DNA from: Nitrososphaerota archaeon
Lineage (GTDB): Archaea > Thermoproteota > Nitrososphaeria > Nitrososphaerales > Gagatemarchaeaceae
DNA length: 34,049 bases
Direction of reading: 5' to 3'
NCBI GenBank assembly: GCA_027886975.1
Contig: JAPCJK010000011.1
Span: 1 to 34,049, forward strand
Position 1 is the stretch's first letter; every line of letters starts with the position of its first letter. Below are positions 241-30,521 of this stretch, piece by piece. The notes under the pieces were generated by a model that saw nothing but the letters and a program-made list of their open reading frames with translations, searched no databases and was not told the origin of the DNA. The translations under genes were made by a program, and so were the position numbers.

Positions 241-1881
241 TTGGAAGGGTTAGCCTTGGGCAATAGGGCGAGCCTCGCATCGGTTTTGATAGTTGCGGTT
301 CTTGTGTTAGCCGCACTCCCATCAATGACGGGGCAGAACGTAGTGGGGGCAGGAGGCGGTCAGCGACGTTTCGGATTCGCCTTCATGAACCCGGGCGGAC
401 TGATGCAGAGCGGATACTCTGCTTCCACGTTCTTCAACGCAATGTTCCTAACTCCTCCCTACCCGTCCACGGCTGAAATCAATACCAACAACGGTATTGG
501 GGAAATCACTAGTCAGGCGACGATTGATTTTATCCTTTCATTGATGCAGCAGGCTTCTGCCTATCCAAACATCAAGCTGGTGTGGCATTTTTCATTCAAT
601 CTTTGCAGTCCCACCGAGATGAGCCAATTCCTTTCCGCTCTAGCAAAACTCGGCACCAGCCCTTACAAGTCTGCAATCGGTGCCGCCGGAGTCTACGATG
701 AGACTGCCAATGTGATTGCTGGCAATGAAGGAGTCAACTGTTCTGGCGCGGCCGAGGACGCCGCCTTCGGCCAGCTTAGCTCTGCCATAACCTCCAACGG
801 CTGGCAGTTCGTTTCAACATATTATGCGTTCCAGGGGACCAACTCGAACAACTGGAACTTCATTTACCAGACCAATTTCCCTGGCGGCGATTCGCAGGGC
901 GCCCTCAATGGCGGAGTGGGCAATCCCAGCATCGTGGGTCTGTTCGCGGGAGACGAAGACGATGCACCATTTCCCAGCCCCGGATGTTCGAACACCTTCA
1001 CAGGCGGCGCGAGTGCGACCTTTGGACTGCCCTACTGGACTACGCAATCCTTCGCGGAAGGATACACCGGTTCGTTTCCAAGTGCGGCGCCATGCCGCAA
1101 CGTGAACACCAACGCTGGCTTTCCACCTACGATTGGTCTGGTTCTTTCGACGGCTGCAACTCAACCGGCGGCCAACAGCCAGTACGTCGTGCTAGACTCG
1201 GGTCACATGGCCACTCAATTCTATCCTAGTTCGGGATGGCAGTATCAGTACTTCACTGGTGTGTCTGGAGTTTCGACCCATTGGCTATGGGATAACCCGG
1301 CGTTCAGAGCCGCCATGACCAATGAAATTGCGGCCCTTCCTGGAGCCTTCATCACAAGTACGGGCGCCACGGTCGTATCGACTTCGACGATTTCAACCGC
1401 TCCCACCACTTCAACCGCCACCACCTCCACCACCTCCTCCACACTCGGGACTGCGACCTCGACAACGACAACTGCGCAGGGAGGCACGGTGACCTTGACC
1501 CTCTCGACTACTGTAACAGTGGTCTCTCAGCCCGTGGTTTCGACGACCACCGCCACGGTAACCCGGACAACTACCTTGGCACATCAGGGTCCACCTTCCA
1601 CCATAACTTTTACGCAAAGAGAAACATCAACCGTTACGGTTACTACTTCCTACTCTACACAATTGGCGGGAACTGGGACTTCAACCCAAAATCAATCGCA
1701 GGATTCGCGTTCTCTGGGTCTAGGGACTAGTGTTGCTTATCCCTCGATGCCGATCTTCCCGCTCCAAGCCATACTTGTCGGCTTGGCAGCCGCAACCATG
1801 GGAGTAGTCTTACTTTCGAATGGGGCATTGACAAGGAGTATCAGGAAAAGAGTCTCGAGACTGGCGAAGTTTCATTCGTAA
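241..1881 (+). CDS. Secreted, Ser/Thr-stalked, C-terminally anchored surface protein (paralogue 1 of 3)
   Basis: Predicted extracellular membrane-anchored protein of 546 aa. A Sec-type signal (SVLIVAVLVLAALPSM) is followed by a globular domain at about residues 45-375. Next come a Thr/Ser-rich stalk (about 378-500), one membrane helix (QAILVGLAAATMGVVLL) and a basic cytoplasmic tail (RKRVSRLAKF). The globular domain is homologous to those of the genes ending at 19615 and 22625, with shared motifs such as FLTPPYPST, NGWQFVS, FAEG and SGVS-H-WD. It lacks the SCGC cysteine motif of the other two but has extra cysteines (FNLCSP, VNCSGA). The track start is TTG at 241. A second TTG at 256 follows GGAAGGG by 6 bases and would still keep the signal peptide. 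The enzymatic or structural role is unknown; I recognise no named family. The gene is convergent with the GNAT gene. Confidence 0.85.
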   Translation: MEGLALGNRASLASVLIVAVLVLAALPSMTGQNVVGAGGGQRRFGFAFMNPGGLMQSGYSASTFFNAMFLTPPYPSTAEINTNNGIGEITSQATIDFILSLMQQASAYPNIKLVWHFSFNLCSPTEMSQFLSALAKLGTSPYKSAIGAAGVYDETANVIAGNEGVNCSGAAEDAAFGQLSSAITSNGWQFVSTYYAFQGTNSNNWNFIYQTNFPGGDSQGALNGGVGNPSIVGLFAGDEDDAPFPSPGCSNTFTGGASATFGLPYWTTQSFAEGYTGSFPSAAPCRNVNTNAGFPPTIGLVLSTAATQPAANSQYVVLDSGHMATQFYPSSGWQYQYFTGVSGVSTHWLWDNPAFRAAMTNEIAALPGAFITSTGATVVSTSTISTAPTTSTATTSTTSSTLGTATSTTTTAQGGTVTLTLSTTVTVVSQPVVSTTTATVTRTTTLAHQGPPSTITFTQRETSTVTVTTSYSTQLAGTGTSTQNQSQDSRSLGLGTSVAYPSMPIFPLQAILVGLAAATMGVVLLSNGALTRSIRKRVSRLAKFHS

Positions 1882-7386: not shown

Positions 7387-8529
7387 TTATCTGTTCATCG
7401 CATCAATCATCTTCCTTGCCACTACCGGCCATTTGAAGCGGCTCACAAAGGTTAGCCCTTTCTGCCCGCGGATCCGCCGAAGCTCGTCGTTCTCCAATAA
7501 TGTCAGAATCGCACGAGAATAACCGACAGAATCATCCTTCGGCACGAACACTCCCACCTCGCCGTAGACCTCTCTAAGCACTGGAATGTCCGAGAGAATG
7601 CAGGGCAAGCCACAGGCCAGGCCTTCCGCCACTACCCTCGCGAAACCTTCAACCATGGAGGGGAGCACAAGGATTTTTGATGCACTAAGCAAATCACGCA
7701 TTGACATCCGGTCGGAGACGTACCCTTCAAAAGCGACATTCTCCGAGATTCCCAGTCTTCGGCTTTTCTCAATCGCCTCGGGCAGATATGGTCCTGACCC
7801 GACCACAAGAAGTTTGGATTCCTTTCTCTTGCTCACGACTTTGCTCCACGCATCGAGGAGGATGCCAACGCCCTTGGCCGGATGGATTCGCCCGACAAAG
7901 ATAGCGTCATACTTCTTAGTCTGCGAAGTCGGAGTGAACCACACGTCCTCGAGTCCGCGTCCTATTACAACTACTCTTCGCGCCCGTAGAACTTCCTTTG
8001 CATAGTTTGCCATTTGATCAGTAGCAGCCAGAGCGACACAGGACGTCCGAAAACCAAACCTCCGAATCAGGTGGAAAGCCACATACCCAAGCATGCTTCG
8101 CCTATGCCTCCGATAGGAATACTTCATGAGACCGAAAAAGCCCTTGGAGTCAACGTGCCTTTTTGCATCGTCCAACACCGAGGTAAGGAACGTCTTCCTC
8201 GTAATCACGCTCGCGAAATATGCAGGCAAGAACGACTTTTCCATATAATCACCGTAGGCGTAGATAGCGTCGCACTTCAACCTCAGGCACAGTCTAAGCG
8301 CTATCAAAGATATCCGAATCATGCTTAGGCTTCCGGAAAATACATCGCGAGGCACTTCAAAGGATTGGAAGTTCAACTGATGAGTTCTTCCGAAGGCGGG
8401 CTGCCGCTCCAGAGTGTATGCGTGGACTCCTAGTCTTGTTAATTCACTCATGAGCTCAATGCAGGTTCTTTCCGCCCCATATGGTGAAAGGGTGGGGTTC
8501 GGTGTTATGAGTACCGAGAGCAGTCTCAT
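7387..8529 (-). CDS. GT4-family glycosyltransferase
   Basis: Retaining GT-B enzyme of about 380 aa. An N-terminal Rossmann lobe begins MRLLSVLITPNPTLSPYGAE, and the nucleotide-sugar lobe starts at YDAIFVGRIHPAKGVGILLDAW. The EX7E motif is intact (EGFARVVAE) and is followed by GLACGLPCILSD. I trimmed the 417-aa track ORF to the ATG at 8529. The first 37 residues would overlap the upstream membrane-protein gene and lie outside the GT fold; the trimmed start lies 29 bases after that gene's stop. Donor and acceptor are unknown. Its C-terminal lobe closely resembles that of the GT4 ending at 16061. Confidence 0.88.
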   Translation of the reverse strand: MRLLSVLITPNPTLSPYGAERTCIELMSELTRLGVHAYTLERQPAFGRTHQLNFQSFEVPRDVFSGSLSMIRISLIALRLCLRLKCDAIYAYGDYMEKSFLPAYFASVITRKTFLTSVLDDAKRHVDSKGFFGLMKYSYRRHRRSMLGYVAFHLIRRFGFRTSCVALAATDQMANYAKEVLRARRVVVIGRGLEDVWFTPTSQTKKYDAIFVGRIHPAKGVGILLDAWSKVVSKRKESKLLVVGSGPYLPEAIEKSRRLGISENVAFEGYVSDRMSMRDLLSASKILVLPSMVEGFARVVAEGLACGLPCILSDIPVLREVYGEVGVFVPKDDSVGYSRAILTLLENDELRRIRGQKGLTFVSRFKWPVVARKMIDAMNR

Positions 8530-8557
8530 GCTTGGAAACGAAGAAGTTTCGTCGTAT

Positions 8558-9061
8558 TTATGAGAATGACGTCGGATCCGGCCGAAGTCGAGCCGAATCG
8601 TGACATACGCGGTTTCTCTCATGGTACCGGCCGTTGACAAGCAGCAGAAAATTGAGAATTGTGAAACTCAGTGCCAGAAAGGCCGCTTCGTGAAGCATCA
8701 AAGGAATGAATGATAGCATGGAAAGTAACTCCCAATAGACAGAAGCGAAATAGATGCTCGCTGCGCACAACAAAACGAATCTTGTTGCTGGCAACTGGCG
8801 CTTCCTCAAGCATGCAAATATGATTCCGGTCGCACTAATCGAGATTAGTGTCTGTAGGGGCTTCGCAAGCGCGAGGCCGGACGAATTGGAGGTAACCCCC
8901 ATTACCCCTCCTGGGAGTAACCCAGCCATCACAAGCGTTGGACTAACTCCTACAATTGTCAAAGAGACCCAATTGGCAAGCTCGTAGAGCCAAACCGAGA
9001 GATAGACGATGGAAGCCGCTCCCGTGAGGTCAGCAAGAATCATAGCTTTGGACGAGAGCAT
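8558..9061 (-). CDS. Unrecognised small integral membrane protein
   Basis: 167-aa hydrophobic protein with about four membrane segments: an N-terminal stretch around VYLSVWLYELANWVSL, then LQTLISISATGIIFACL, FVLLCAASIYFASVYW, and FLALSFTILNFLLLV. It has a charged tail (GRYHERNRVCHDSARLR). No catalytic motif is evident. It could be an accessory membrane subunit for the downstream GT4, with which it is probably co-transcribed. The start ATG at 9061 is used; a second ATG six codons later is possible. Confidence 0.6.
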   Translation of the reverse strand: MLSSKAMILADLTGAASIVYLSVWLYELANWVSLTIVGVSPTLVMAGLLPGGVMGVTSNSSGLALAKPLQTLISISATGIIFACLRKRQLPATRFVLLCAASIYFASVYWELLSMLSFIPLMLHEAAFLALSFTILNFLLLVNGRYHERNRVCHDSARLRPDPTSFS

Positions 9062-9114
9062 TGATCATGCACCCGGAGAAGACGAAGTTATGTCCTTAGG
9101 CATCGAATCGAAGA

Positions 9115-9121
9115 AATATAC
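9115..9121 (-). promoter_or_regulatory. Possible TATA box for the membrane protein/GT4 pair
   Basis: The minus strand reads GTATATTT in the 166-bp gap below the dehydrogenase gene, about 57 bases before the ATG at 9061. This would give a leader of about 30 bases. It is single-copy evidence only. Confidence 0.3.
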
Positions 9122-9227
9122 GTCGTGGATTTGCTATTCCTTACGTTCAGGAATAGGAAGGCTGTCCTTCAATGCCCGACCGCCGTTTTCATCTCAGTCA
9201 TGGCGGCTATTCTTGGACCAGAAATTC

Positions 9228-10601
9228 CTAGCGCCCTCGTCCTACCCCTCGATAAGCAAACCCAGCCCGGATTGCGGCCTCGGGGTCCACCAGGTTACGA
9301 CCGTCAACCAGAACTCTGCTCCTCATCATCTTTGCCAGGCCTTGGAGGTTCAGGGACTTGTACTCCCTGTGTCCGGTCGCGATCACGATGCAATCGGTTC
9401 CCCGGACAGCCTCGTCCATGCTCTTCACCTTCGTCCCGAACACTACATCCCCCTCGTACATCGGGTCATGAATCGACATTTCTCCGCCCATCTCTGCCAA
9501 TCTTCTCCAAATCCCTTCGGCAGGGGTAAGTTGGACGTCTTTGATGTTGGGCTTGTACGCCACACCCAGAAGGGCGATTTTAGACCCTCTGACTGTCTTT
9601 CCAACCTCGTTCAACGCTTCTGATACCAATTGTACCACGTGATCGGGCATCCTATCGTTGATTTCCCTTGCCATGCGTATCATGTACGGAATGTTACCTG
9701 CCCTGACCCCTTCGCTGATCAGATAGTACGAATTCGAGGGCAGACAAGGTCCACCAACCCCCGCCCCGGGGTAGTGCGGAAGGAAGTTGTACTTCGAAGC
9801 GCAACCGTTGATAACTTCTATCGCGTCGATGCCGAGCTTCTCGAAAAGGAGACTGAACTCGTTTGCAAATGCAATGTTCACGTCTCTGAAGAGGTTCTCG
9901 GTGAGTTTGATTGCATTGGCGGTCTTCGGATTGCGAACCTGAATCACTTTCACCCCCAGCGCGGTCTGGTAAAGGGCCGACACGACCCCTAGAGACCGAG
10001 AATCTGTTGCACCGACTACCCTGGGGATGGTTCCCATGTTTGCCAGTATGTTGCCTGGGTCCGAACGCTCCGGGGCGCTGGCGAGGCCGAAGTCCCTACC
10101 TCCTTTCAGGCCCGACTCCGCCTCAATCAAGGGTTGTATCAAGTTCTCCGCCGTCCCTGGCCCTACAGTGCTTTCGACGACAACAATACTCCCCCTCCTT
10201 AGACTTCGTCCTATGGTACTCGAAGCTGACTTCACTGCCGAGTAGTCCGGTGACTTCCTGTCGTCCACCGGAGTAGGAACGCTGATGATGCTGATGTCTG
10301 AGCGCGAGACAGCCTTCCCGATGTCGGTCGTTGCTTGCAGCCTCTTTGCTTTGACCTGTTCTCGTACCATTTTGGGAAGGCCGGGTTCGTCAACGAATTT
10401 GCATTTGCCTCGGTTCACGGATGACACGACTGCGGCGCTAATGTCGGCCCCAAAAACGCGAGCGCCTGCCCTTGCGAGGATGGCAGCTGTGGGCAGCCCG
10501 ATTCTGCCGAGGCCAACCACTGCAATTGTGATTTTCCCTTGTTTCAGTAGCGAGGGCACTCTCGACGGGGAAAGAGAATGTTGTTTGATTGATGCTCTCA
10601 T
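9228..10601 (-). CDS. Nucleotide-sugar 6-dehydrogenase, WecC/UDP-ManNAc type
   Basis: 457-aa NAD-dependent enzyme oxidising C6 of a UDP-HexNAc (ManNAc, GlcNAc or GalNAc) to the uronic acid. The NAD-binding GLGRIG is at 30-35, SAPERSDPG at about 175-183, and the catalytic cysteine is Cys286 in GVGGPCLPSN. A C-terminal UDP-binding domain ends LVDGRNLVDPEAAIRAGF. The SAPER region and GGPCL place it in the UDP-N-acetylhexosamine branch, unlike the neighbouring UDP-glucose-type enzyme. SNS replaces the frequent (K/V)DP after the active site. The first ~25 residues are an extra basic leader, so a later start is conceivable. It lies 27 bases downstream of the DUF457-like gene in the same operon. Confidence 0.88.
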   Translation of the reverse strand: MRASIKQHSLSPSRVPSLLKQGKITIAVVGLGRIGLPTAAILARAGARVFGADISAAVVSSVNRGKCKFVDEPGLPKMVREQVKAKRLQATTDIGKAVSRSDISIISVPTPVDDRKSPDYSAVKSASSTIGRSLRRGSIVVVESTVGPGTAENLIQPLIEAESGLKGGRDFGLASAPERSDPGNILANMGTIPRVVGATDSRSLGVVSALYQTALGVKVIQVRNPKTANAIKLTENLFRDVNIAFANEFSLLFEKLGIDAIEVINGCASKYNFLPHYPGAGVGGPCLPSNSYYLISEGVRAGNIPYMIRMAREINDRMPDHVVQLVSEALNEVGKTVRGSKIALLGVAYKPNIKDVQLTPAEGIWRRLAEMGGEMSIHDPMYEGDVVFGTKVKSMDEAVRGTDCIVIATGHREYKSLNLQGLAKMMRSRVLVDGRNLVDPEAAIRAGFAYRGVGRGR

Positions 10602-10628
10602 GCGTCGTTTCGACCAGATGGTCGTATA

Positions 10629-11219
10629 TTAGTTTCTTACGAAGTTGGGTGGACGAGTGTTGAACCTTGTTAGGAGTCCGGCCATTATTGCCAAGACGAA
10701 CGCCGACACGTAGAGCCAGGGATAGATTGAGTTGAGTGCGTAGTATTGCATCGAGAATGGGTAAAACAAGGGAAAGAGGCCGGTATCGACTGCCAAATGG
10801 CCCAAGAAAGCAGCGCCAATGAGGACTCCTGTTTCAATGGGCTTTTTCAACAGTATCAACTCGGCGAGGACAACGACCCCCAAGAATAGAAGCGAGTGGG
10901 CGGGTCTTATCGGCTGTGGAATTCCAAGAGCCGCGGGGATATGGTCTAGGTCGAACAGCAGCATAAGAACGACAGAAAGTATTACAGGTCTCATACTAAA
11001 TCGGATTGAAAAGAGACTCGTTGCGAAGCCGACGGCCAAACCCATCGCCGAAAGAGCGACCAAATGGGGCGGGATGGAGTAGATGGGCCGAAAAGTACCT
11101 ATCTTGAAATGAATGTCGCTTGTTAGCACTGAGACGGCCGTAAAGGTAAGCCCGACGGCAATGAAGACTGCGCTCACCTCGAGGACTTCCCGAATTGAGC
11201 CTCTAATGCTGTTCATCAT
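10629..11219 (-). CDS. DUF457/YdjM-like membrane-bound metal-dependent hydrolase
   Basis: About 196 aa from the ATG at 11219. The hydrophobic protein has roughly five membrane segments and the metal-ligand pattern of the family: DLDH at 90-93, RPAHS with His108, and GHLAVD with His141 and Asp145. The 237-aa track ORF starts inside the upstream dehydrogenase gene, so I used the ATG 46 bases after that gene's stop; a second ATG lies one codon later. Family members are usually described as putative membrane hydrolases of unknown substrate. Its place between two nucleotide-sugar dehydrogenases suggests a lipid-linked glycan or membrane role, which is inference. Confidence 0.68.
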   Translation of the reverse strand: MMNSIRGSIREVLEVSAVFIAVGLTFTAVSVLTSDIHFKIGTFRPIYSIPPHLVALSAMGLAVGFATSLFSIRFSMRPVILSVVLMLLFDLDHIPAALGIPQPIRPAHSLLFLGVVVLAELILLKKPIETGVLIGAAFLGHLAVDTGLFPLFYPFSMQYYALNSIYPWLYVSAFVLAIMAGLLTRFNTRPPNFVRN

Positions 11220-11265
11220 TGAATGGTTACCCTGGACCCAGGAAGACGAGAAACCTTTGGTCTCC

Positions 11266-12609
11266 CTAGTCCGCGCTTCCGATTCTCGCGTATTGAACAC
11301 CCCCCTTAGCGAAGGTTGAAGGTCTGTAGAGCCGTCTGCCATCGACTATGACGGGGGTAGCCATCAAACTCACGTAGTCCTTGGGGGTGAGCCGACGGAA
11401 CTCATCCCAATCTGTTCCTATGATACAACACTCTGCCCCTTTTAGCGATGCCTTTGCGGAAGTCCCGTACCTGACCCTAGACCCGAGGATTTCAGCAGCC
11501 TTGTCCATGCCCTGGGGGTCGTAAACGGTCACGACTGCTCCTTCCTTGATGAGCTTACGTGCTATGAGCATTGCTCTGGATTCTCTCAGATCATCACTGT
11601 TCGCCTTGAAGGTGAGACCTAGCAAGGTCACTTTCTTTCCCTTGATAGAGACACCGAGGTTCTTCGCCATTTCCAGTGTCTTTTCCGGCTGTGTGTCATT
11701 GATGCGTAGCGCCGCCTCCAGAAGCCCAGCGTTTTCACCCAGTTCGGTTGCCCTGGCTGCGAGGGCGCGCGTATCTTTCGGCAGGCAGCTTCCCCCGAAG
11801 CCTATTCCCGCCTTCGCGTATCTCCTGTCAAGTTTCGCTATGTCGACAAGCCCCCGTGCGACTGAATCTATGTCTCCTCCAGGAGTGCGGGAACAGATGT
11901 TTGCGATTGTGTTGAGGAAGGTGAGAGTAACGGCTCGGTAGGCGTTTACTGCGTACTTGATGAACTCGGCGTTCGTCGCAGAAGTCACCAGGTAGCGCGA
12001 CCTGCCAAGGTTCAGATTGCGGTAGAATCCCTTGAGGGCTCGTATCGAAGTGGGGTCAGAAGACCCTATCAGAACGGTTGATTGGTGCTTCGAATCCCAG
12101 ATGGCGCTTCCCTCTCTCAGGAACTCCGGGTTGGCAGCCAAGCCGAAACCTGTCCCCTCCTCCTTCCTGGATTCCTTCTCTAGGATCGTCTTCACCAATC
12201 CATCCGTCGAACCAGGGAGGACCGTGCTCTTGACGACAACTAGGCGGTAATCGAGGGTCCTCAACGACTTTCCAATGCTCGAGGCCGCGTCCCTGACGTA
12301 GCGGAGGTCGATTGCGCCGTTGGGGCCGCTCGGAGTTCCAACTGTTATGAAGACCATGTTCGAGTCTCGCAGTGCATCTTCATAGCTTGACGTAAGCGAA
12401 AGTCGCCCACTCCGCAGGGCCGTCTTGAGCATCCCCTTGAGGCCCGGCTCATGGATGGGTGTTGACCCACGGTTGATCATTCTGACCCTCTTCCGGTCGA
12501 TTTCGAGGCCTTTCACGCGAAATCCCCGGTCTGCGAAGACCACGGCGCTGCAGAGCCCAACGTAACCCAGCCCCACGACTGCGACGCTCTGCTTCGGATT
12601 ATCTGCCAA
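11266..12609 (-). CDS. UDP-glucose/GDP-mannose-type 6-dehydrogenase (Ugd-like)
   Basis: 447-aa NAD-dependent enzyme producing a nucleotide uronate, most likely UDP-glucuronate. The NAD-binding GLGYVG is at 13-18, ANPEFLREGSAI at 159-170, and Lys218 lies in FIKYAVNAYRA. The catalytic Cys275 is in GFGGSCLPKDTRAL, and the C-terminal UDP-binding domain includes GLTFKANSDDLRES. Length and motif order are canonical. The start is TTG at 12609. A TATA-like box at 12640-12648 implies a leader of about 8 bases. First gene of a minus-strand block with DUF457-like and WecC-type genes. GDP-mannose as substrate cannot be excluded by eye. Confidence 0.9.
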   Translation of the reverse strand: MADNPKQSVAVVGLGYVGLCSAVVFADRGFRVKGLEIDRKRVRMINRGSTPIHEPGLKGMLKTALRSGRLSLTSSYEDALRDSNMVFITVGTPSGPNGAIDLRYVRDAASSIGKSLRTLDYRLVVVKSTVLPGSTDGLVKTILEKESRKEEGTGFGLAANPEFLREGSAIWDSKHQSTVLIGSSDPTSIRALKGFYRNLNLGRSRYLVTSATNAEFIKYAVNAYRAVTLTFLNTIANICSRTPGGDIDSVARGLVDIAKLDRRYAKAGIGFGGSCLPKDTRALAARATELGENAGLLEAALRINDTQPEKTLEMAKNLGVSIKGKKVTLLGLTFKANSDDLRESRAMLIARKLIKEGAVVTVYDPQGMDKAAEILGSRVRYGTSAKASLKGAECCIIGTDWDEFRRLTPKDYVSLMATPVIVDGRRLYRPSTFAKGGVQYARIGSAD

Positions 12610-12639
12610 GGCTAAGACCGAGACACCTCGGAAAATCGA

Positions 12640-12648
12640 TTCTTAAGA
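12640..12648 (-). promoter_or_regulatory. Possible TATA box of the Ugd-like gene
   Basis: The minus strand reads TCTTAAGAA, centred about 35 bases before the TTG at 12609. It sits in the 163-bp divergent region shared with the GT2 gene. It resembles the CTTAAG boxes of the tiny genes. Confidence 0.4.
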
Positions 12649-12772
12649 TGATTCCACGGCAAAGGTGTAGCGTTAGTAGGGAGCAAGACCAGACCCTGGA
12701 ACCTTCTGACGTCTGGCGTCTGAGGCACTGCGCGCCAATGGATAAGAGCCGCTCTTGGGGCTCTCAGACTCG

Positions 12773-13675
12773 ATGGTGAGCAACCCAAGGGTCTCAGTCG
12801 TCATGCCGAACTTCAACGAGGCAGAGTTCCTCGGGAAGGCCATCGAAAGCGTCCTTGGGCAGACCATGGCCGATCTGGAGTTGATAGTAGTGGATGGGCA
12901 TTCAACTGACAACTCGTTGAAAATCGCCCGTTCATACGCTGACGAGGACAATAGGGTCCGAGTCATAACAGAAGAGGAGCGAAAGGGAGTCTCTGCATCC
13001 AGGAACATCGGGATCCGGGAAGCGAAGGGGGAGGCAATCGCATTCCTCGATTCAGACGACCTGTACGCCCCCGAGAAACTCGAAAAGCAGTGGGCCCATC
13101 TCAAGGCCCAACCTAACCCTGTAATCGTTTATTGCGACCGATGGAAACTGGACATTGATGGGATGACGCTTCCTCCGGAAAGCTTGCAGCGACGCGCTGG
13201 GAGCGGAATGATTTTTGGGGACTTCGTCACGCGCGCTTTTGGGCACATTCACACTATCCTTGTGCCCGCACAGTGCCTCGGGCGAGTGGGATTGTTCGAC
13301 GAGTCTCTGAGATGGGCAGAGGACTACGACCTGCTCCTCCGACTTGCTCGGTCGTATCCTTTCGAATACGTTGATGAGAAGCTCTACGGGTACAGAAAGC
13401 ATCCTGGGAACACCCAAAACATCATGGACAGGCAAAGCCGACTCCGGAGCCAAGCCATAGTCCTCGAGAGGAATCTCCGGGTTGGTGGGAAACTGATGAC
13501 CCCTGATCAGAAGAAATCGGTTGTCAAAGAGCTTCTGAGGCTTTATTCCGAAACGAATCAGCGAGGAAGGTTGTTGAAGCTGGGGCTGACGAGCCGTCCA
13601 GGACCAAGATACGTCCTAAGATATTTCGGTCGCAGGGGCTTGAAACTCCTCGAGGGCACCAGAACAGCCGGGTGA
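12773..13675 (+). CDS. GT2-family glycosyltransferase
   Basis: About 300-aa inverting GT-A enzyme. It opens RVSVVMPNFNEAEFLGKAIESV, and LELIVVDGHSTDNS carries the nucleotide-binding Asp. The metal-binding DXD-like motif is FLDSDDLY, and WAEDYDLLLRLA is the ED-type acceptor-side motif. No membrane segment is present, so it is cytosolic. I used the ATG at 12773 rather than the TTG at 12755 because GT2 folds start immediately before RVSVV. AGAGCC and GGCTCT arms with an 8-base spacer lie at 12745-12764, just upstream. It is the only plus-strand GT here, and its stop is 3 bases from that of the convergent kinase-like gene. Confidence 0.9.
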   Translation: MVSNPRVSVVMPNFNEAEFLGKAIESVLGQTMADLELIVVDGHSTDNSLKIARSYADEDNRVRVITEEERKGVSASRNIGIREAKGEAIAFLDSDDLYAPEKLEKQWAHLKAQPNPVIVYCDRWKLDIDGMTLPPESLQRRAGSGMIFGDFVTRAFGHIHTILVPAQCLGRVGLFDESLRWAEDYDLLLRLARSYPFEYVDEKLYGYRKHPGNTQNIMDRQSRLRSQAIVLERNLRVGGKLMTPDQKKSVVKELLRLYSETNQRGRLLKLGLTSRPGPRYVLRYFGRRGLKLLEGTRTAG

Positions 13676-13678
13676 GGT

Positions 13679-14869
13679 CTAGGAAAGGACCTTCACCACC
13701 GCCCGTTCCAGGTCCGAAGGGCTGTAGCTAAGAGGTGCGTCGATCCCGAAAATCTTGGCGTTGCGCACCCCCGACTTTAGCACTTCGATTATTCTTGTGT
13801 GGTGCAGTGCTTCTTCGGCGATGAAATCGTTTCCCAAAGAGGCCGAGGAGCAATAGACGTATTGGCTGTGCCGCCACGGCGCCGCGGCGAACTCCCAGAA
13901 CAGCTCGGCGCCAAGCACTCTCACCAAGTCGTTACTGTCAACTTCTTTCACTGAGAAATCATTCCCGACCCCCCTTCTGATGAGGACGACTGTGCGGAGG
14001 GGGCAAGCATCCCCAATCTTGGCTCCTTCGAATATTTCGCCCAACGTCCGGCGTGGCTGGAGGTCGAGGGGCTCGTTTGGGGGGAGCTTCCGAGCAAGCT
14101 CGGGGAATGCCTCAAGATGCTGTGATTGTAACTTGACGGGTTTGGGGTACGAGAGAAGACCTCCGTTTTTCGCTAAGATGGCGAGGTCGTCCCCATAGTA
14201 GAGGAACCCCCTCTTGACCAGCTGAAGGGCCAAGGTCGTCTTCCCCACCCTGGCAGAGCCTACCACCAGCAGACCGGACCCCTCGGAAGAGAGCGCCGAG
14301 GCATGAACCAAAGAACAGCCCTTGAAGGGGAGTCGATAGTACAAGAAAGGCTCCAGGATTGCCAACAATATTCTCTCTGCCTGCTGTTCCAAACGCTCCT
14401 GTTCGAACAGGGGGCTGCCGGTGAGGGCTAGGAGACTTCTCCTCCAGCCGTGATTGGCGAGCTCTCTGAGGAGGCGCCTGAAACGCTTTTCCGCTGGCGG
14501 AAAGGTTGGCACGCAGACTTCCACCGGTTGTGTTCCTTCCTTTACCTCCCCTGTGATGGCATACTCAACCTCGTCCTTCTTTGGTTGAACACCAATACTC
14601 CGTCTGAAAACAGAGGTCTGTCTCATCTTGGCGTCGTATAGCAGCCTGTCACCAACGGTTGCTCCAGTTGGCTGCCAGTCATCTGATGGATAGGAGCCAA
14701 TCTTCAGCGTGATATCTGCATCTTCTCCATCTGCCCTGAACGGATTGAGCGTCCTGTCCAAGACATCGCCTAGTTTGGACCTAGGACTTTGGATGCCAAC
14801 GCTCAACAAGTCATGTATGTCGTAGTGTGTCAAGTCACCAACCTCGGGCGCTCCATGTGCGTTTTCCAT
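13679..14869 (-). CDS. HPr-kinase/phosphorylase-like P-loop protein with unknown N-terminal domain
   Basis: 396-aa protein. The C-terminal half matches the HprK-like kinase fold: LVHASAL at 188-194, Walker A GSARVGKTT at 204-212, and the Asp-rich YYGDDLAIL at about 224-232. LLSYPKPVKLQ then follows, as in HprK-related proteins of peptide-modification and polysaccharide loci. The N-terminal ~180 residues are not recognisable to me. No PTS protein or HPr is in the window, so a small molecule or another protein is the likelier phospho-acceptor; that is inference. It is the last gene of the long minus-strand run, 16 bases after a GT4 start codon. It could act as a glycan-modifying kinase or as a regulator. 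Confidence 0.75.
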   Translation of the reverse strand: MENAHGAPEVGDLTHYDIHDLLSVGIQSPRSKLGDVLDRTLNPFRADGEDADITLKIGSYPSDDWQPTGATVGDRLLYDAKMRQTSVFRRSIGVQPKKDEVEYAITGEVKEGTQPVEVCVPTFPPAEKRFRRLLRELANHGWRRSLLALTGSPLFEQERLEQQAERILLAILEPFLYYRLPFKGCSLVHASALSSEGSGLLVVGSARVGKTTLALQLVKRGFLYYGDDLAILAKNGGLLSYPKPVKLQSQHLEAFPELARKLPPNEPLDLQPRRTLGEIFEGAKIGDACPLRTVVLIRRGVGNDFSVKEVDSNDLVRVLGAELFWEFAAAPWRHSQYVYCSSASLGNDFIAEEALHHTRIIEVLKSGVRNAKIFGIDAPLSYSPSDLERAVVKVLS

Positions 14870-14885
14870 TTACCGAAATCAACAT

Positions 14886-16064
14886 TCATCTGAGGGTCTC
14901 CAGAACTCGGTCTACGATAGGGGGAATCCTAGACTTGATGTCGAACTCGCCCATTCGGAGCGCTTGGTCTCTTGCATCGCTGCTGAGCGACTCCCATGTT
15001 TCATACGCGAGCTTGATGCTGTTTTCGAATTCTTTCAGGCTCGAGCCTGTCCACACTACCCCACGGAGGTTCTTGAAATCGAGGTCTGAAGTTTCTGTTC
15101 GTGTGGCAATCACAGGTTTCCCTACCGCAAGGGCCTCCGTAATCTTGAGCCATGCGCTGTGGCGAGAAAACCTGGACTTCGTGCTCGATGGGCAAAGGAG
15201 GACGTCGCAGGCTGCCAGATACTTGGGGAGTTCTTCGTAGGGCACCAGCCCCAGGTAAGCACACGCCGCCTCGGGAAACTCTTTCCTCAGTCTGACGAAC
15301 TCGCCCTGTAGGGGACCCTTCCCACCGATTATCGCGTACCCCCTGGGAACTAGACTTCCTATCTCTTTGGCAAGCGGGACAAGAACTTCTTTAATCAATC
15401 GATGTGGCTGCATGATTCCGAACCAGCCAACAACGAATTTCCCCTCCAACCCAAGACGATGTCTGATTTGGCTTCCGTCGACGTCAGAAGAAAAGCGTTC
15501 GGTGTCCACACCCCTGAAGTATCCGGCAGTCTTCTTCACAGAGAAGCCCTCCCCAACAAGCCTTCTAGCGTAGGCCTCAGACGGAAGAATCAACAGGTTT
15601 GAGAGTGAGACCATCGCTCTCTCCTCAATTGCCGAAAGCCTTTGCTCAGTAGTGCCCTCTATCATCCTTCCCTCAGCGATCTCGAAATCGGTGTATGGAT
15701 CTCTCTGGTCAAGGACGACCTTGATCCCCGCGACTCTCAGAACCAGTTCGATTGGGACTCTGCGAATGGGGGAATGACGGAAGAAGAGCCACTCATCAAT
15801 GTACACCAGCCTAACGCCGCTCCGCAGGCAGTAGACGAATATCCGTGCTGCGGAAAGAAGGGCTGCTCCAACTCCCACGGCAGGGACGCGGAGGGTCGCA
15901 AATAGGATGCCATCCCTCCGGGAAATCGAATTTTCCTTCCCCAATTGAATCCAGCTCACGCCTATTCCTCGGCGCATTATCTCCTTCGAAACGTAATACC
16001 CTTTGATATTGTCAAAGGTAGGGGGGAACCTAGCCTCTCTATCAAAGAGAAGGCCGACCCTCAA
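14886..16064 (-). CDS. GT4-like glycosyltransferase
   Basis: 392-aa GT-B protein. The N-lobe begins MRVGLLFDREARFPP and includes VVLDQRDPYTD. The donor lobe has KFVVGWFGIMQPHRLIKEVL and ends LKITEALAVGKPVIATRTE. The usual first Glu of EX7E is replaced (RHSAWLKITE), as in the subset of GT4-like enzymes with a Ser/Lys-rich version of this loop. It starts at TTG 16064 and overlaps the upstream GT4 stop by four bases (TTGA), so translation is probably coupled. The substrate is unknown. Confidence 0.85.
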   Translation of the reverse strand: MRVGLLFDREARFPPTFDNIKGYYVSKEIMRRGIGVSWIQLGKENSISRRDGILFATLRVPAVGVGAALLSAARIFVYCLRSGVRLVYIDEWLFFRHSPIRRVPIELVLRVAGIKVVLDQRDPYTDFEIAEGRMIEGTTEQRLSAIEERAMVSLSNLLILPSEAYARRLVGEGFSVKKTAGYFRGVDTERFSSDVDGSQIRHRLGLEGKFVVGWFGIMQPHRLIKEVLVPLAKEIGSLVPRGYAIIGGKGPLQGEFVRLRKEFPEAACAYLGLVPYEELPKYLAACDVLLCPSSTKSRFSRHSAWLKITEALAVGKPVIATRTETSDLDFKNLRGVVWTGSSLKEFENSIKLAYETWESLSSDARDQALRMGEFDIKSRIPPIVDRVLETLR

Positions 16065-17338
16065 GGATTCCGCAACTTCCGCTTTCTGGCAAGGCCGTAG
16101 TTCAATATGGCATGGGAAATCTCATCCGACTCCTTGTCCACCACTTTCTCCCAGCTGAATTGTTGTACATGGGCCCGGCCACGCGCGCCTAACTTTACCC
16201 GTTCCCCGTCGTCGGCGAGAACTGACAGAACGGCGTCTGCCAGCTCGACTGGCCTATCTGGTGGAACGAATATTGCGACGTCATCGTAGACATCTTTCAG
16301 AGGTGGGATATTCGAGAGCACGCAACATAGACCGCACCCCATGGCCTGTGAAACCGCCTGCGCAAATCCCTCATTCCTGGACGGAAAGACGAAAACCTTC
16401 GAACTATTCAGGAGTTCCACGAGTTCCTTGTCTCCCACGAATCCCTTGAATATCACGGCATCGTCGATGCCAAGGTCCCTTGTCATCGCCCGGTATGTTT
16501 CAATATTATTCTTCTCTCCCCCTCCGAGCAGGAGTAGCTTGGCCTGCGGGAGTTTTCCACGCACGATAGACCAGCTTTTGAGGAGGATGTCAATCCCCTT
16601 TTGAGGGGTCAGGCGCCCGAGGAAGACTGCTTCAAAGACCTGGCTCCGCCTACTTTCACTAAACTTCTCGTGATCGAGCCCATTCCCGACCACCACGCAA
16701 TCATGAATTCCCAGAGACTTTGCGACATCGGTTCTTGTGGCCTTGGAGAGCGCCAGGTGCCCATCCGCGCGAATTGCAGAGAACCGGTTTACTGCTGGCA
16801 CAATGCTACGCCAAATGGAGCTAGCTAGACCGTAACCCCTTTGTCTCCTCGACGCTATGCCGACTTGGAGGGATGCGAAGGCATCCTCTAAGAGGTGGTG
16901 ATATACTATCACCAGCGGCCGATGCAAGATTATCTTGAGTAGATAACCGGTAATGACGTTCTCGGGGTCCTGATTGTATGCGTAAATCGCAGAGGGCTTT
17001 TCAAAACGAGCGAGCACCAATCTTGGGATTGACATGAAGAGAACTGTCGCCAAGTCGAGGGGACTCCGGATAGGAAGACGACACTTCCTCATTTCAAACG
17101 AGTCATATGCGTTTTCACCCATGTCACGCTGAAATGAAGGGGGCATTTCGACTGTTAGAAGGCAGATTCGCCTTGCCTTGTAGACCCTTGCCTTTTCGAG
17201 AAAGCCCCTCTCATCTCCTCGTATCTGCCTGCCCCACCGGTATCTGTGGATGAAAAGGCAGAGCATCGTTCTACAAGGGCCTTGGTCCTTGTGTCTCCCT
17301 GGTGCCTTCTCGAGCGTGTCCATTGCCTCAGACTCCAC
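16061..17338 (-). CDS. GT4-family glycosyltransferase with altered EX7E motif
   Basis: 425-aa GT-B enzyme. The donor lobe starts FEAVFLGRLTPQKGIDILLKSW, and the active-site loop is EGFAQAVSQAMGCG. The second glutamate of EX7E, which normally contacts the donor nucleotide ribose, is Gln here. The related GT4 ending at 7387 keeps Glu at that position. The start GTG at 17338 shares a base with the upstream TAG stop (TAGTG). However, the first ~24 residues are hydrophilic and lie outside the fold, so the ATG at 17266 (MLCLFIHRYRWG) is a fair alternative. Confidence 0.85.
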   Translation of the reverse strand: MESEAMDTLEKAPGRHKDQGPCRTMLCLFIHRYRWGRQIRGDERGFLEKARVYKARRICLLTVEMPPSFQRDMGENAYDSFEMRKCRLPIRSPLDLATVLFMSIPRLVLARFEKPSAIYAYNQDPENVITGYLLKIILHRPLVIVYHHLLEDAFASLQVGIASRRQRGYGLASSIWRSIVPAVNRFSAIRADGHLALSKATRTDVAKSLGIHDCVVVGNGLDHEKFSESRRSQVFEAVFLGRLTPQKGIDILLKSWSIVRGKLPQAKLLLLGGGEKNNIETYRAMTRDLGIDDAVIFKGFVGDKELVELLNSSKVFVFPSRNEGFAQAVSQAMGCGLCCVLSNIPPLKDVYDDVAIFVPPDRPVELADAVLSVLADDGERVKLGARGRAHVQQFSWEKVVDKESDEISHAILNYGLARKRKLRNP

Positions 17339-18396
17339 TAACTCGCGTGTCGCAGAGCGGCTTCGTAGGCGCTAAGCGTGGCAGATGCACTTCTAGACCA
17401 CGTGAACTTTTCGAGGACCGCTTGTCGTCCTCTATTCCCAAGGCTTTCTGCAAGTTCGTCATCTTCACAGAGTGACCGCAGGGCCTCCGCCAGGGCGGGC
17501 ACGTCCCCCGGGGGCGTCAACAGTCCTGTCTTCATGTCCTCGATTAGCTCCGGGAGACCCCCAGTCCGAGAAGCAACTACGGGGCGCCCGACGCTCATTG
17601 CTTCGAGGGGCACTATCCCCATCGGCTCGTAGACGCTGGGGACTGCTACAACGTCTGCGATTGAATAGTAGAGGGGCAGGTCATTCTGCGGAACGACCCC
17701 GGCGAAGGTCACTTTGGAATTGAGGGCCAGCTTCTGTGCCAATGACCTCAGTTCGCCTTCCATCTCGCCCCTGCCACAAACGACCAAGAAGAGGCCCGGG
17801 AGTCGTTCGCTAAGGATGGAAAAGGCACCTAGGAGATGATGGACCCCTTTTTTTGGAGCGAGGCGACCCACATACAGAATTACCTTCTTGTTCATGAGGC
17901 CCATCTTTTGCTTCAGCGCCCGCTGATCGATGCTTGGGCTGAAGAAGTTCGCATCTACCCCGTTGTATACGGTGAAATGCCTGGGTGCGTCCTTCCCAAG
18001 GAAGTTAGAAAGCCTTCTTCCCACGAAGTTGGAAACTGATATCAAAGCGTCGTAATGTCCAAGGGTGAACTTCATGAGCTGTCTCTTTGTCTTGCTTGGA
18101 TACCAGTAAGGCGGAGTGAACCCGTGTGCTGTGCAGACACAACATCCCGCCAGGATACGTGAAGCGAGAAGTCCCGAAATTACTGGAGGAATGCTCTTGA
18201 TACCCTGGATGTGTACTACGTCGAATCCCTTGCCAACCTTAGCTGTATAGTATCCTAAGGCTAGCAAAGAAGGCATGTCGACTAATGGAAAGATGGTGAC
18301 CTGATGGTTTCGCTTACGGAACTCCCTGGACAACTCGCGCGTGGCTGTGCTGACACCTCCGATTTCCTTGAAAGTGCTTATGAAAGCGATTCTCAT
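17338..18396 (-). CDS. GT4-family glycosyltransferase
   Basis: 352-aa GT-B enzyme with canonical features: MRIAFISTFKEIGGVSTATR at the N-terminus, VSNFVGRRLSNFLG, and VYNGVDANFFSP. The donor lobe has VILYVGRLAPKKGVHHLLGA and an intact EX7E (EPMGIVPLE) followed by GRPVVASRTGGLPELI. The VYNGVD and GRLAPKKG stretches are typical of mannosyl- and glucosyltransferases of the archaeal/bacterial PimA-like GT4 group, but specificity cannot be read. It starts at ATG 18396, 13 bases after the stop of the preceding GT4 gene. Confidence 0.92.
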   Translation of the reverse strand: MRIAFISTFKEIGGVSTATRELSREFRKRNHQVTIFPLVDMPSLLALGYYTAKVGKGFDVVHIQGIKSIPPVISGLLASRILAGCCVCTAHGFTPPYWYPSKTKRQLMKFTLGHYDALISVSNFVGRRLSNFLGKDAPRHFTVYNGVDANFFSPSIDQRALKQKMGLMNKKVILYVGRLAPKKGVHHLLGAFSILSERLPGLFLVVCGRGEMEGELRSLAQKLALNSKVTFAGVVPQNDLPLYYSIADVVAVPSVYEPMGIVPLEAMSVGRPVVASRTGGLPELIEDMKTGLLTPPGDVPALAEALRSLCEDDELAESLGNRGRQAVLEKFTWSRSASATLSAYEAALRHAS

Positions 18397-18409
18397 CGGA
18401 CCGAACCTA

Positions 18410-19522
18410 TCAATCGGAGCCGTTTGGGGGACTCAAAGCCATTTCGAGCTTGTCAACGGCCTTGTCAATGCTGAACTCTGAGATTGCCCGCTCTTGGGCT
18501 TTTTTCCCCAATTTTCTGCGAAGCTCCGGGTCGATCAGGAGTTTCCTGATTGCTTGTTCGAGAGCCTGGGCGTCATCCTCGGGAACCAGCAGACCAGTCT
18601 TGCCGTCGAGGACCGCTTCAGAGATCCCACCGGTCCTCGTGCCGACAGAAGGCATCCCGAATACTCCAGCCTCTAAGAATACAGTCCCGAATCCCTCTAC
18701 GTCGCCTCCTGTACTTCTCGCTGGAAGGACGAGCACATCGGCCATGGCGAACCGGTCGTACAGCTCCGAGCCCACCAGTGCTCCGTGGAACTTGACCCTT
18801 CCGCCAAGAGAAAGGTCCGCTGCCAGGCGTTTGAGGGTGGGCATTTCCGGCCCGTCCCCTACGATGTCAAACTCAATGTCCGGCATGTCGACCTGTAAGG
18901 ACTTGAAGGCTTTCAAAAGGAGGTCCACCCCCTTCCTCAACACCAGCCTTCCGACAAAGAGGACTCTTGGCCTGTCTTCCTCCCGACGGGTGAAAGTCGC
19001 CTCCTCGCGGATCTTGGGATCGACTGACGGATAGATGACCATGTACTTGTTTCCTCTCGAAAGGATGCTCTCGGTGAACCTTGAATTGACGGCTACAACG
19101 CTCGCAAGTCTCAGAGCGAAGAGAAGGAGTATCTTCTCCGCCATTTTCGTTCTTGCTTGCAATACGTCCCGGCCGTAAAGGAAGACCACAACACGACGCC
19201 CGCTTGCGCGGCAGTAGGCCGAGAGCGCCAGCCCGTAGAGCGTTATTGATCCGCTGACGAGGAGCAGAGCACTCAGAGAGTCTTTTATGACCATACTTAT
19301 CGAAGTGTAGAGTGAAGAAGGCAATCGCGCGGTCGACGAATTCAACCTGACGATGCTGGGGTCGCCTTCCACTCTTTTGACTTGCAGGTATCCTGGGGAA
19401 AGACTGGCAGTTTCCACAAAGTGCCCTCTTCTCCGGAGCTCTACGGCATAGTGCCTGGACCGGCCCTCAATCCCACCTATGTTCTCCGGCGGGTCGAACG
19501 TTACCAGCAGGAGCCTCGTCAC
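18410..19522 (-). CDS. GT4-family glycosyltransferase
   Basis: 370-aa GT-B enzyme. It opens TRLLLVTFDPPENIGGIEGR, the glycine-rich acceptor loop that starts many GT4s. It contains VFLYGRDVL, VAVNSRFTESIL and VIYPSVDP. The donor lobe has VLFVGRLVLRKGVDLLLKAF and EX7E EGFGTVFLE. ALLLVSGSITLYGLALSAY in the N-lobe is hydrophobic enough to suggest peripheral membrane contact. The start is GTG at 19522. The 92-bp gap upstream separates it from the stalked surface-protein gene. It heads a tight four-GT4 set ending in the kinase-like gene. Confidence 0.9.
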   Translation of the reverse strand: MTRLLLVTFDPPENIGGIEGRSRHYAVELRRRGHFVETASLSPGYLQVKRVEGDPSIVRLNSSTARLPSSLYTSISMVIKDSLSALLLVSGSITLYGLALSAYCRASGRRVVVFLYGRDVLQARTKMAEKILLLFALRLASVVAVNSRFTESILSRGNKYMVIYPSVDPKIREEATFTRREEDRPRVLFVGRLVLRKGVDLLLKAFKSLQVDMPDIEFDIVGDGPEMPTLKRLAADLSLGGRVKFHGALVGSELYDRFAMADVLVLPARSTGGDVEGFGTVFLEAGVFGMPSVGTRTGGISEAVLDGKTGLLVPEDDAQALEQAIRKLLIDPELRRKLGKKAQERAISEFSIDKAVDKLEMALSPPNGSD

Positions 19523-19614: not shown

Positions 19615-22479
19615 TCACCATTGGGATTCTAGCTTTCTGCGATTCAAGAATCCTCTGAGGAGATATAGAGAAGCACCGCTCCCCAATAGCGCGACCAGAG
19701 CGAGCATCGGGTAGCTCAAAGCGACTGCCACGGCGAGGGTGTTTGAGCCAGCCGAACTCTGGGCCACATCGTAGGTTAGGCCCATGTAGCTGACGTGAGC
19801 GGTGTAGGTCCCGAGAGGCACGTGTGTGAAGCTCGCCAGTCCGGCGCTGTCGGACCGAGACGCCAAGACTTGGCCGTTCGCGGTTGTAATCGATACCAAG
19901 GCTCCTTGAAGGGGCATCCCGAACATGTCTGTTATCTTTGTGGTAACGTCATAGACAAGGAGAGGGATCGTCCGGGTAGTCGGGGTAGTTGAAGGGATGA
20001 CGCTGGACTGTCCCCCCGGCCCGACGTCGATTCCCATATAGAATACGCTCTGAAGAGTGTATCGCGCCCCCTCCACAATCCAGACCTGGCCGCTCGCCGG
20101 GACGTCAACGCTTCCCGAAGGCCCATACAGGCTAGCGCTGTCTGGCCTTATTGGCGCACCTGCAGAGTCCGTGAACCTGAGTTGCAATAGGACCTGGGTC
20201 TGGTATTCGGCGATGACATCCATCGAGGAACTCACCTTCAGGGTGGCCTGTGGCGAGCTGCTCTTGATTGAACCAGACCATCGCTGGAATACCCACCTAG
20301 TCTGGTCGGACGTGGAGGATGTGGCGGTGATGCTGTGGTTGGAGCCCACTGGCCAGGAGAACACGGTGGGAAGTGTGTAGCTGGACCCGTCGACCTGTAT
20401 TGTGTGCGAGCCCTCCAAAGACCAGAAGGTCACTTCGGCTAGTGCCAGGGAGCCGGCGCTGAGCGGCCTGAAGATCGCCGCAAGAGCAGAATTGTTGTGT
20501 CTGATCGTAGCTGTGATTACTGTTGAGCTCCCAACGGACTGCCCGTCCAGTGTCCAGTGATCCAGCGTGTACCCCGCCATTGGGGAGGCAGTTGCCGAAA
20601 ACGAGCTGTTGGGCGCTGAAAGGTATCTGCCCGGGGCTGGAATCGTAGTTCCTCCACTTGACGGCAGGCTTTCGAGCAGTAAGTAGTATTGCATGGGCGC
20701 CGCCGAGACATACAGCGTATAAGTAACCGCGGCTGAGATTCCGCCCGAAGTTAGCGATACTATAACGAAGTAGGTCCCTGTGGATACCGCGGAAGAGACT
20801 TGGACCTGCATCGTAGAAGAGAAACTGCTAATGCTTTGAGTTGGTGAGAAGCTAACCGTAAATCCTGGGGCAAGGTTCGGGGCAGATAGAACTCCCATCT
20901 GGTTTGTTCCGTGCATGAATGCGGCCAAGTTGACAGTTACGACTCCGCCTTGAACGACCGACCCGATGGAGGGCGAGAGGCCCAGAGCTAATGAGGGTTG
21001 GGAAACAGAAGTGATTGTCGTTGTCGTGACTATCGTGGTTGTCGTCGTCGTGACACTAGTCGAAGTGGAGGTTGCAGTCGAGGACTGAGTCGACGTAGTG
21101 GTGCTAGTAGTCGATGACGTTGGGGAGCTTGTGGTGCTCGTCGAGGAGGAGCTCGTGGTCGTTGACGAAGCTGAGGTGGAGGAGCTCGAGGTCGTGGAGG
21201 TGGCGGAAGTGCTCGAGCTGGAGGAGGTCGACGTCGAAGTTGTTGTGGTTGGAGAAGTCGACGTTGTCGTCGAGGAAGTCGAAGTTGTGGGTGGCTGCGC
21301 TCCGGTGGAGGTCAAAAACACGCCGGGGTTAGCGGCAATCCAGCCGGAGACAGTGGCCCTGAAGGGAAGGTAGTCCCACATGAAGTGGCTGCTGACCCCT
21401 GACGCACCGGATTGGTAGGTGTAGGAGCAGCCGCAGGAGCTGAGGGCACCGTAACCGTTCGCCGTGTTGCCTCCGAGCAGGTAGACCCATTGACGGTTAA
21501 ACGCCGAGACAGAAGCCGCTGCTGCGACCGCTTGGTTGACGGTCGGGGGATAGCCGGCATTGGTGACCGGATTGTGACACGGGCCAATGTTGTTGTAACC
21601 AGTCCCGAGGTAGCCTTCCGCAAAGCTCAGGGTCGACCATGCGGGTTCGTTGTATCCATAGACTGTAGAGCACCCGATACTCGGGTACGGTTGGAGTCCG
21701 TCGCTCCCGATGGTCTGCCCGACGATGTTGGAGGAGCCAGACCCATCGTTGAGGTTCGCCTGGGTGTCCCCTGTCGGATAATTTGTGTGTGCTGTGAATT
21801 GATAGTTATTCGAGCCGCTATTCGTGCCCTGCCATCCCTGCGGGTAGTAGCTGACGAACTGCCATCCATTTGCTGTGATGACCCCTTTGGCCTGGGCGAA
21901 GGCGTTGTCCACCGTTGAGCCAGTCGCTCCGTTATCCACAATGTTGAGCTGCTCGACGGCGAAGCCGACGAAGCCAATGGATGAAGAATAGGGCGAACTG
22001 TGGAGGGTGGTCATGGTGTTGGTGAAACCCGTCCATTGGGATGGATTCGTTATGTCAAATGCGACCTCCAGCCCTACCTTGACGTTTGGGTACGCGTTTG
22101 CCTGCTGCATCAGCGAAAGGAGGAAGTTGATATTATTCTGATCGGTGATTTCTTGAATCCCATTGTTCATCAGAAGCTGGACTGTGGATGGGTAGGGTGG
22201 AGTCAGGAACATCCCATTGAAGAAAGAACTGGCAGAATATCCTGCTATCCTGAGGCTCCCGATTCCAATGAAACCGAATCCGAAGCGCTGGGGGGTCGAT
22301 GGGGTCAGGGGGCTCGAGGAGAACTGTGCCCCTGACCCGTGCCCGATTGCGTTCTGAAGCGCTTGAGCGAAGGCGGGGGAAGCGTAGGTCGAGGAGAGAA
22401 TCACGAGGAGTACAACGAATCCAGCTGACACGAGTTTCCGAGCGCGGACCCAATCGTTTCCCTTCGAGTCTGAATCCAA
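19615..22479 (-). CDS. Large stalked surface protein with C-terminal β-domains (paralogue 2 of 3)
   Basis: 954-aa exported, membrane-anchored protein. The order is a signal helix (VSAGFVVLLVILSSTYASPAFA), the shared globular domain (about 65-400), and a Thr/Ser stalk (about 402-495). An Ig/NEW3-like β-domain follows (about 500-600, with APGFTVSFSPTQ). Next are two InlB-B-like repeats marked by AGYTLDHWTLDGQ and WVFQRWSGS. A carboxypeptidase-regulatory-like module (MFGMPLQGALVSITTANGQ) precedes the membrane helix (YPMLALVALLGSGASLYLL) and RRKLESQW. The shared domain has IGCSTVYGY, IGPCHNPVTNAGYPP and LSSCGCSY cysteines that could form disulfides outside the cell. The start is TTG at 22479. It could be a glycan-binding, glycan-processing or S-layer-associated protein; the function is not established. 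Confidence 0.87.
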   Translation of the reverse strand: MDSDSKGNDWVRARKLVSAGFVVLLVILSSTYASPAFAQALQNAIGHGSGAQFSSSPLTPSTPQRFGFGFIGIGSLRIAGYSASSFFNGMFLTPPYPSTVQLLMNNGIQEITDQNNINFLLSLMQQANAYPNVKVGLEVAFDITNPSQWTGFTNTMTTLHSSPYSSSIGFVGFAVEQLNIVDNGATGSTVDNAFAQAKGVITANGWQFVSYYPQGWQGTNSGSNNYQFTAHTNYPTGDTQANLNDGSGSSNIVGQTIGSDGLQPYPSIGCSTVYGYNEPAWSTLSFAEGYLGTGYNNIGPCHNPVTNAGYPPTVNQAVAAAASVSAFNRQWVYLLGGNTANGYGALSSCGCSYTYQSGASGVSSHFMWDYLPFRATVSGWIAANPGVFLTSTGAQPPTTSTSSTTTSTSPTTTTSTSTSSSSSTSATSTTSSSSTSASSTTTSSSSTSTTSSPTSSTTSTTTSTQSSTATSTSTSVTTTTTTIVTTTTITSVSQPSLALGLSPSIGSVVQGGVVTVNLAAFMHGTNQMGVLSAPNLAPGFTVSFSPTQSISSFSSTMQVQVSSAVSTGTYFVIVSLTSGGISAAVTYTLYVSAAPMQYYLLLESLPSSGGTTIPAPGRYLSAPNSSFSATASPMAGYTLDHWTLDGQSVGSSTVITATIRHNNSALAAIFRPLSAGSLALAEVTFWSLEGSHTIQVDGSSYTLPTVFSWPVGSNHSITATSSTSDQTRWVFQRWSGSIKSSSPQATLKVSSSMDVIAEYQTQVLLQLRFTDSAGAPIRPDSASLYGPSGSVDVPASGQVWIVEGARYTLQSVFYMGIDVGPGGQSSVIPSTTPTTRTIPLLVYDVTTKITDMFGMPLQGALVSITTANGQVLASRSDSAGLASFTHVPLGTYTAHVSYMGLTYDVAQSSAGSNTLAVAVALSYPMLALVALLGSGASLYLLRGFLNRRKLESQW

Positions 22480-27281: not shown

Positions 27282-27294
27282 CAGACGAGCACGC

Positions 27295-30517: not shown

Positions 30518-30521
30518 TCCC

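Follow-up and report, generated by a model that had tools for sequence, protein, structure and literature searches.

The window analysed here is one entire contig of a Nitrososphaerota archaeon (34,049 bases), and among its genes for glycan synthesis it encodes three proteins (p1, p2 and p3) that share a domain, here called D1, raising the question of what this domain does. Our preferred answer, to which we give a probability of about one half, is that D1 is an extracellular domain of (beta/alpha)8 type, anchored to the membrane, which processes the cell's own surface polysaccharide. An earlier note on this DNA had aligned the three proteins over about 330 residues, and we recovered this alignment over approximately 332 residues at 49-72% identity. 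A search of the whole genome with p3 returned exactly these three copies (E-values of 0, 1e-171 and 4e-88), so the match among them is not due to chance. Positions of all features are collected in Table 1.

Table 1. Window positions of the three D1 proteins, their conserved residues and the neighbouring glycan genes
Feature	Positions	Strand	Basis and description
p1, 546 aa	241..1881	+	ORF and translation, hydropathy; signal segment, D1, Ser/Thr-rich linker, C-terminal transmembrane segment (residues 508-526), basic tail
D1 domain of p1	361..1368	+	Alignment; AlphaFold query
p2, 954 aa	19615..22479	-	ORF, hydropathy; signal segment, D1, Ser/Thr linker (residues 396-482), Ig-like scaffold, C-terminal transmembrane segment
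D1 domain of p2	21298..22293	-	Alignment
C-terminal display scaffold of p2	19618..20997	-	BLAST; homologous to the C-terminal part of a Spherulin4 protein and of other surface proteins of sister genomes
p3, 482 aa	22625..24073	-	ORF, hydropathy; signal segment, D1, Ser/Thr linker, C-terminal transmembrane segment (residues 442-460)
D1 domain of p3	22964..23959	-	Alignment; AlphaFold query
Strand-4 Glu (VGFAVEQ/VYDET)	p1 E154 700..702 (+); p2 E176 21952-21954; p3 E152 23618-23620		Kept in 8/8 relatives
FAEG Glu	p1 E273 1057..1059 (+); p2 E288 21616-21618; p3 E264 23282-23284		Not family-wide
Third Glu (NGIGE/NGIQE), after strand 2	p1 E88 502..504 (+); p2 E110 22150-22152; p3 E86 23816-23818		Alignment
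WD near domain end	p1 D351; p2 D369; p3 D345		Alignment
Glycan genes, one side	7387..19522		Pfam: five GT4, one GT2, two UDP-sugar dehydrogenases, HPr-kinase-like protein
Glycan genes, other side	24096..33463	-	Pfam: three GT4, PIG-L deacetylase, NAD epimerase, two GT2, ADH-GFO/IDH/MocA fusion

The three proteins have the same layout: a hydrophobic segment at the N-terminus is followed by D1, a Ser/Thr-rich linker, a C-terminal transmembrane segment and a basic tail. Hydropathy placed both a signal segment and a transmembrane segment in every D1 copy, and likewise in the one protein examined that carries the remote relative D1b (see below). The divergence between p2 and p3 (dN 0.21, dS saturated) is consistent with purifying selection. 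No Pfam or NCBIfam model matched D1 at E<=1 (Pfam gave no match anywhere in p1 or p3 and none within D1 of p2), no PDB sequence matched at E<=10, and phage, plasmid and viral-contig searches returned no relative. Likewise, none of Pfam, NCBIfam and the PDB sequences linked D1 by sequence to a known glycosidase.

A total of eight GT4-type and several GT2-type glycosyltransferases were identified in the window by Pfam, and we read the window as a surface-polysaccharide locus. By ORF coordinates, the stretch running from 26296 to 13679 has all its genes on the same strand and no gap between them longer than 145 bases. Within this operon-like run of glycosyltransferase genes, p3 and p2 sit between two GT4 genes, with p3 located 22 bases beyond the GT4 gene at 24096. 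Such a setting is the one expected of polymer hydrolases in the role of Sph3 or PelA, since the D1 genes lie among polymer biosynthesis genes and their products have a predicted export signal and transmembrane segment. The earlier guess of a glycan-active enzyme gained from this location within a glycosyltransferase cluster and from the predicted fold, and its chemistry stays a prediction.

The same location bears on whether D1 could be a foraging glycosidase that digests outside fungal or plant polymers in acidic soil, as proposed for the secreted GH135 of this archaeal family, which we consider quite unlikely. Secreted GH135 has been reported for the Gagatemarchaeaceae, with fungal wall degradation suggested (PMC10640624), and sister genomes have up to 7 Spherulin4 copies while the Spherulin4 model PF12138 has no match anywhere in the window genome or in Thaumarchaeota archaeon SubAcS15-15, the other genome with D1; both points would suit foraging. 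In total, PF12138 matched in 10 of 46 family genomes. However, the D1 genes occupy a biosynthetic glycosyltransferase locus common to two genera, not one with importers or catabolic genes, and their proteins are predicted to be anchored to the cell.

D1 was found in 2 of the 46 genomes of the same family, those of the window and of SubAcS15-15. No further credible match was found in overlapping samples of 400 class, 398 phylum and 300 order genomes. A scan of genome contigs matched SubAcS15-15 only; it used two strict peptide patterns, which could miss distant relatives outside the phylum. Weak profile matches in several genomes (G571, G168, G370 and others) were short and were taken as chance, and the one inspected (G571) lay, by eye, within a HypF-like protein. 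SubAcS15-15 encodes D1 in two proteins, of 487 and about 1200 aa, within a glycan locus syntenic with the window, the shared proteins being mostly 51-85% identical, with lower values (34-44%) for the PIG-L protein and a second GT2. Among the five D1 copies, that of p1 was 36-49% identical to the other four.

Two further observations were made in SubAcS15-15. A 575-aa protein encoded between its two D1 genes (L012:915-2642, minus strand) appeared by eye to be a NodU-type carbamoyltransferase, a candidate not seen in the window. The long D1 protein also carries a second domain, D2 (G032:C1:41596-42390), which has no Pfam family and is 34-43% identical to relatives in four further genomes of the order, one of these relatives adjoining a Spherulin4 gene (L024, L025, L026, L027). 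D2 was considered as a homologue of D1, and no homology was detectable in the comparisons, one of which was poor because of badly trimmed D2 alignment rows.

In a genome of the same genus as that of the window (G003), many of the window's glycan genes have homologues, and past these lie the genes of three proteins that carry a remote relative of D1, here called D1b. At about 265 residues, compared with approximately 332 for D1, D1b lacks the FAEG segment and has WN in place of WD, while the strand-4 Glu and the motifs FxTxP(F/Y)PS and LW(D/N)xxxxR are common to both. In the comparison of D1 with D1b by hhalign the score was 32.0, whereas 80 column shuffles reached at most 23.8, yet the hhalign probability was only 22%. 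One of the D1b proteins bears a scaffold of the p2 type. From the hhalign score, the shared motifs, the one shared scaffold and the shared locus, we take D1 and D1b, with moderate confidence, to be homologous.

These relatives allowed the conserved acids to be weighed. The glutamates of VGFAVEQ/VYDET and FAEG, together with the WD, aligned among p1, p2 and p3 just as the earlier note had stated, but its description of two invariant glutamates did not stand. A third Glu (NGIGE/NGIQE), which it had passed over, was kept in all five D1 copies (three in the window and two in SubAcS15-15), and the FAEG Glu was kept in 4 of 8 relatives, falling within a deleted segment of one SubAcS15-15 protein and being absent from all three D1b. 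Because the wider family does not keep the FAEG Glu, the argument from a glutamate pair to a glycan enzyme fails. In two of the three alignment settings used, the strand-4 Glu was the sole acid that stayed invariant across the eight D1 and D1b sequences; the remaining setting placed D1b differently, and there the invariance was lost. The same pairing of this Glu between D1 and D1b was given by hhalign. About 20 columns were conserved across the family in total. An Asp two residues before the strand-4 Glu, as in the GH18-type DxE, was present in 2 of the 5 D1 copies and in no D1b. The strand-4 Glu is the one carboxylate kept family-wide, and a second would have to lie in the C-terminal half, where the models have pLDDT <50.

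This pattern of acids can also be read without catalysis, D1 being a glycan-binding TIM-barrel lectin of the chitinase-like-protein type that would keep the surface polymer at the membrane or organise it there. A single acid invariant across the family, with the FAEG Glu and the GH18-type Asp not kept, would suit such a lectin, as would three divergent copies in one genome if they bound different glycans, and the Foldseek matches include the chitinase-like lectins 1hjx and 2esc. Yet the strand-4 Glu was retained in every relative though little else was, and it stands at the position where many barrel glycosidases have their acid. We regard the lectin reading as unlikely.

The fold was examined using AlphaFold models of the p3 and p1 domains, which had mean pLDDT values of 48 and 47, respectively. 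Both showed alternation of strands and helices in the first ~150 residues, best modelled around residues 40-110 (block means of 60-91), while the stretch directly after the strand-4 Glu and the remainder of D1 beyond those ~150 residues had pLDDT <50. In Foldseek searches of the PDB, one model matched TIM barrels that included GH84, GH5 and GH18, and the other matched GH18 chitinases. Glycosidases were prominent among these TIM barrels (GH18, GH84, GH5, GH20), all at E>0.001 and a TM of about 0.3, with no PDB match at E<=0.001, and the non-glycosidase barrels PdxJ and CLYBL were also among the top matches. A search of a viral library gave nothing convincing. The (beta/alpha) barrel guessed in the earlier note is thus favoured for the N-terminal half by both models and by these matches, and the C-terminal half has no confident model; on these models D1 is likely a barrel, half of which is seen.

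The poorly modelled half leaves room for a barrel-like domain with another chemistry on the surface polymer or on surface glycoproteins (such as a deacetylase, lyase or ligase step), or for a fold in the C-terminal half that is not a TIM barrel, and the non-glycosidase barrels among the top matches point the same way. We judge this distinctly improbable, however, as no conserved set of metal-binding His was seen in the D1 alignment and glycosidases were prominent among the structural matches.

The scaffold of p2 occupies roughly the last 460 residues of the protein, with a weak Ig-like match (PF24025), and is 39% identical over 223 aa (3e-30, BLAST) to the C-terminal part of the Spherulin4 (GH135) proteins of sister genomes. 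Scaffolds of this type were found in 17 of the 46 family genomes (L046, L052 and L112-L122, in addition to the window), each with a C-terminal transmembrane segment and with varied N-terminal cargo: Spherulin4, D1, D1b, Phi_1 and unknown domains. Because other cargo is also borne, sharing the scaffold with Spherulin4 is weak evidence for activity, and as an argument for a glycosidase function of D1 it was weakened once this cargo was found. The scaffold marks surface display, not glycosidase activity. Descent of D1 from Spherulin4 was also examined and found no support, as the hhalign score of 21.1 against the archaeal Spherulin4 barrels fell within column shuffles (maximum of 24.3) and no sequence homology was detected.

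Among known systems, the closest parallel is Spherulin4/GH135 (PF12138), which includes Sph3 and is, as predicted for D1, an extracellular TIM barrel, in the case of Sph3 encoded in the cluster of the polymer that it cuts. In Aspergillus, Sph3 belongs to the galactosaminogalactan cluster, folds as a TIM barrel and is required for galactosaminogalactan to be made (PMC12054363, PMC11356417). The likeness extends to p2, whose scaffold is homologous to the one carrying a Spherulin4 barrel in a sister archaeon. D1 differs in being about 100 residues longer and in having no detectable sequence homology and no PF12138 match. As for the closed (beta/alpha)8 barrel expected of this family, only the N-terminal half of D1 is modelled with any confidence. 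GH18 chitinases and GH84 O-GlcNAcases were prominent as partial Foldseek matches, covering a half-barrel only, and neither matched D1 in sequence (Pfam, PDB sequences). In GH18, as in D1, a Glu lies at the end of strand 4, whereas the DxE motif is incomplete in D1, with the Asp in 2 of 5 copies. The endo-galactosaminidases GH114, GH166 (PelA) and GH191 are barrel hydrolases tied to extracellular polymers (PMC12054363); D1 has no Pfam match, and these families were not among the top Foldseek matches listed.

For processing of the cell's own polysaccharide by a D1 enzyme, we counted the strand/helix alternation of the N-terminal half, the GH barrels found by Foldseek, the strand-4 Glu in 8 of 8 relatives and the operon-like run with GT4 genes, together with the locus shared with SubAcS15-15, the closeness of D1b in G003 to counterparts of the genes of this locus, the signal and transmembrane segments, the signs of purifying selection on p2 and p3, and a Spherulin4 barrel on a p2-type scaffold. 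Counted against it were the Foldseek values, the high rank of PdxJ and CLYBL, the low-confidence C-terminal half, the missing sequence link to glycosidases, the other scaffold cargo, the single family-wide acid and the DxE Asp in 2 of 5 copies. As read from the sequence, the signal segment would export p1-p3, the C-terminal segment would hold them outside the cell, and the Ser/Thr linker would space D1 off the membrane. There the barrel would bind the polymer that the glycosyltransferases encoded nearby make, and cleave or transfer its glycosidic bonds, with the strand-4 Glu as general acid/base plus a second carboxylate. By analogy, D1 would act as do Sph3 and other hydrolases whose genes belong to the locus for the very polymer that they trim, and the divergent D1 copies may serve different linkages or sites. 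The closed barrel, the catalysis and the substrate are what we infer beyond the data above.

Taken further, D1 and D1b could together be a new family of glycoside hydrolases or transglycosylases that occurs only in a few soil Gagatemarchaeaceae. Its barrel would be one of several alternatives exchanged on a shared cell-surface scaffold as each lineage's surface polysaccharide changes, a proposal that we hold tentatively and at less than even odds. We know of no description of the surface polysaccharides that these uncultured soil Thaumarchaeota make. Linking an orphan barrel family to a biosynthetic locus would help to identify the polymer, and a scaffold on which barrels are exchanged would illustrate one route by which archaeal surfaces diversify.

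Base composition was compared for both loci. The G003 glycan locus (L051-L052, G003:C1:138000-176000) has a GC content of 55%, compared with 60% in three sampled stretches of that genome, and in tetranucleotides it is closer to the window. These features hint that such glycan loci move between lineages by horizontal exchange. The composition of the window fits its own genome, with a tetranucleotide distance of 0.080 to the other contigs pooled, while pieces of that genome differ among themselves by 0.089-0.137; the first 20 kb of the window compared with two long contigs alone gave 0.162. As the distance of 0.080 is no larger than those within the genome, there was no sign of a misbinned contig, and the window could still have come from a close relative.

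Two minor observations concern individual glycan genes. The protein encoded at 13679-14869 (minus strand), inside the glycan locus, has a weak HPr-kinase-C match below cut-off, and homologues at 76% identity in SubAcS15-15 and about 40% in G003. With its start as listed, the PIG-L ORF shares 245 bases with the GT4 ORF (26520-27539 and 27295-28485, minus strand); since the Pfam match to PIG-L begins only at residue 109, its true start probably lies downstream.
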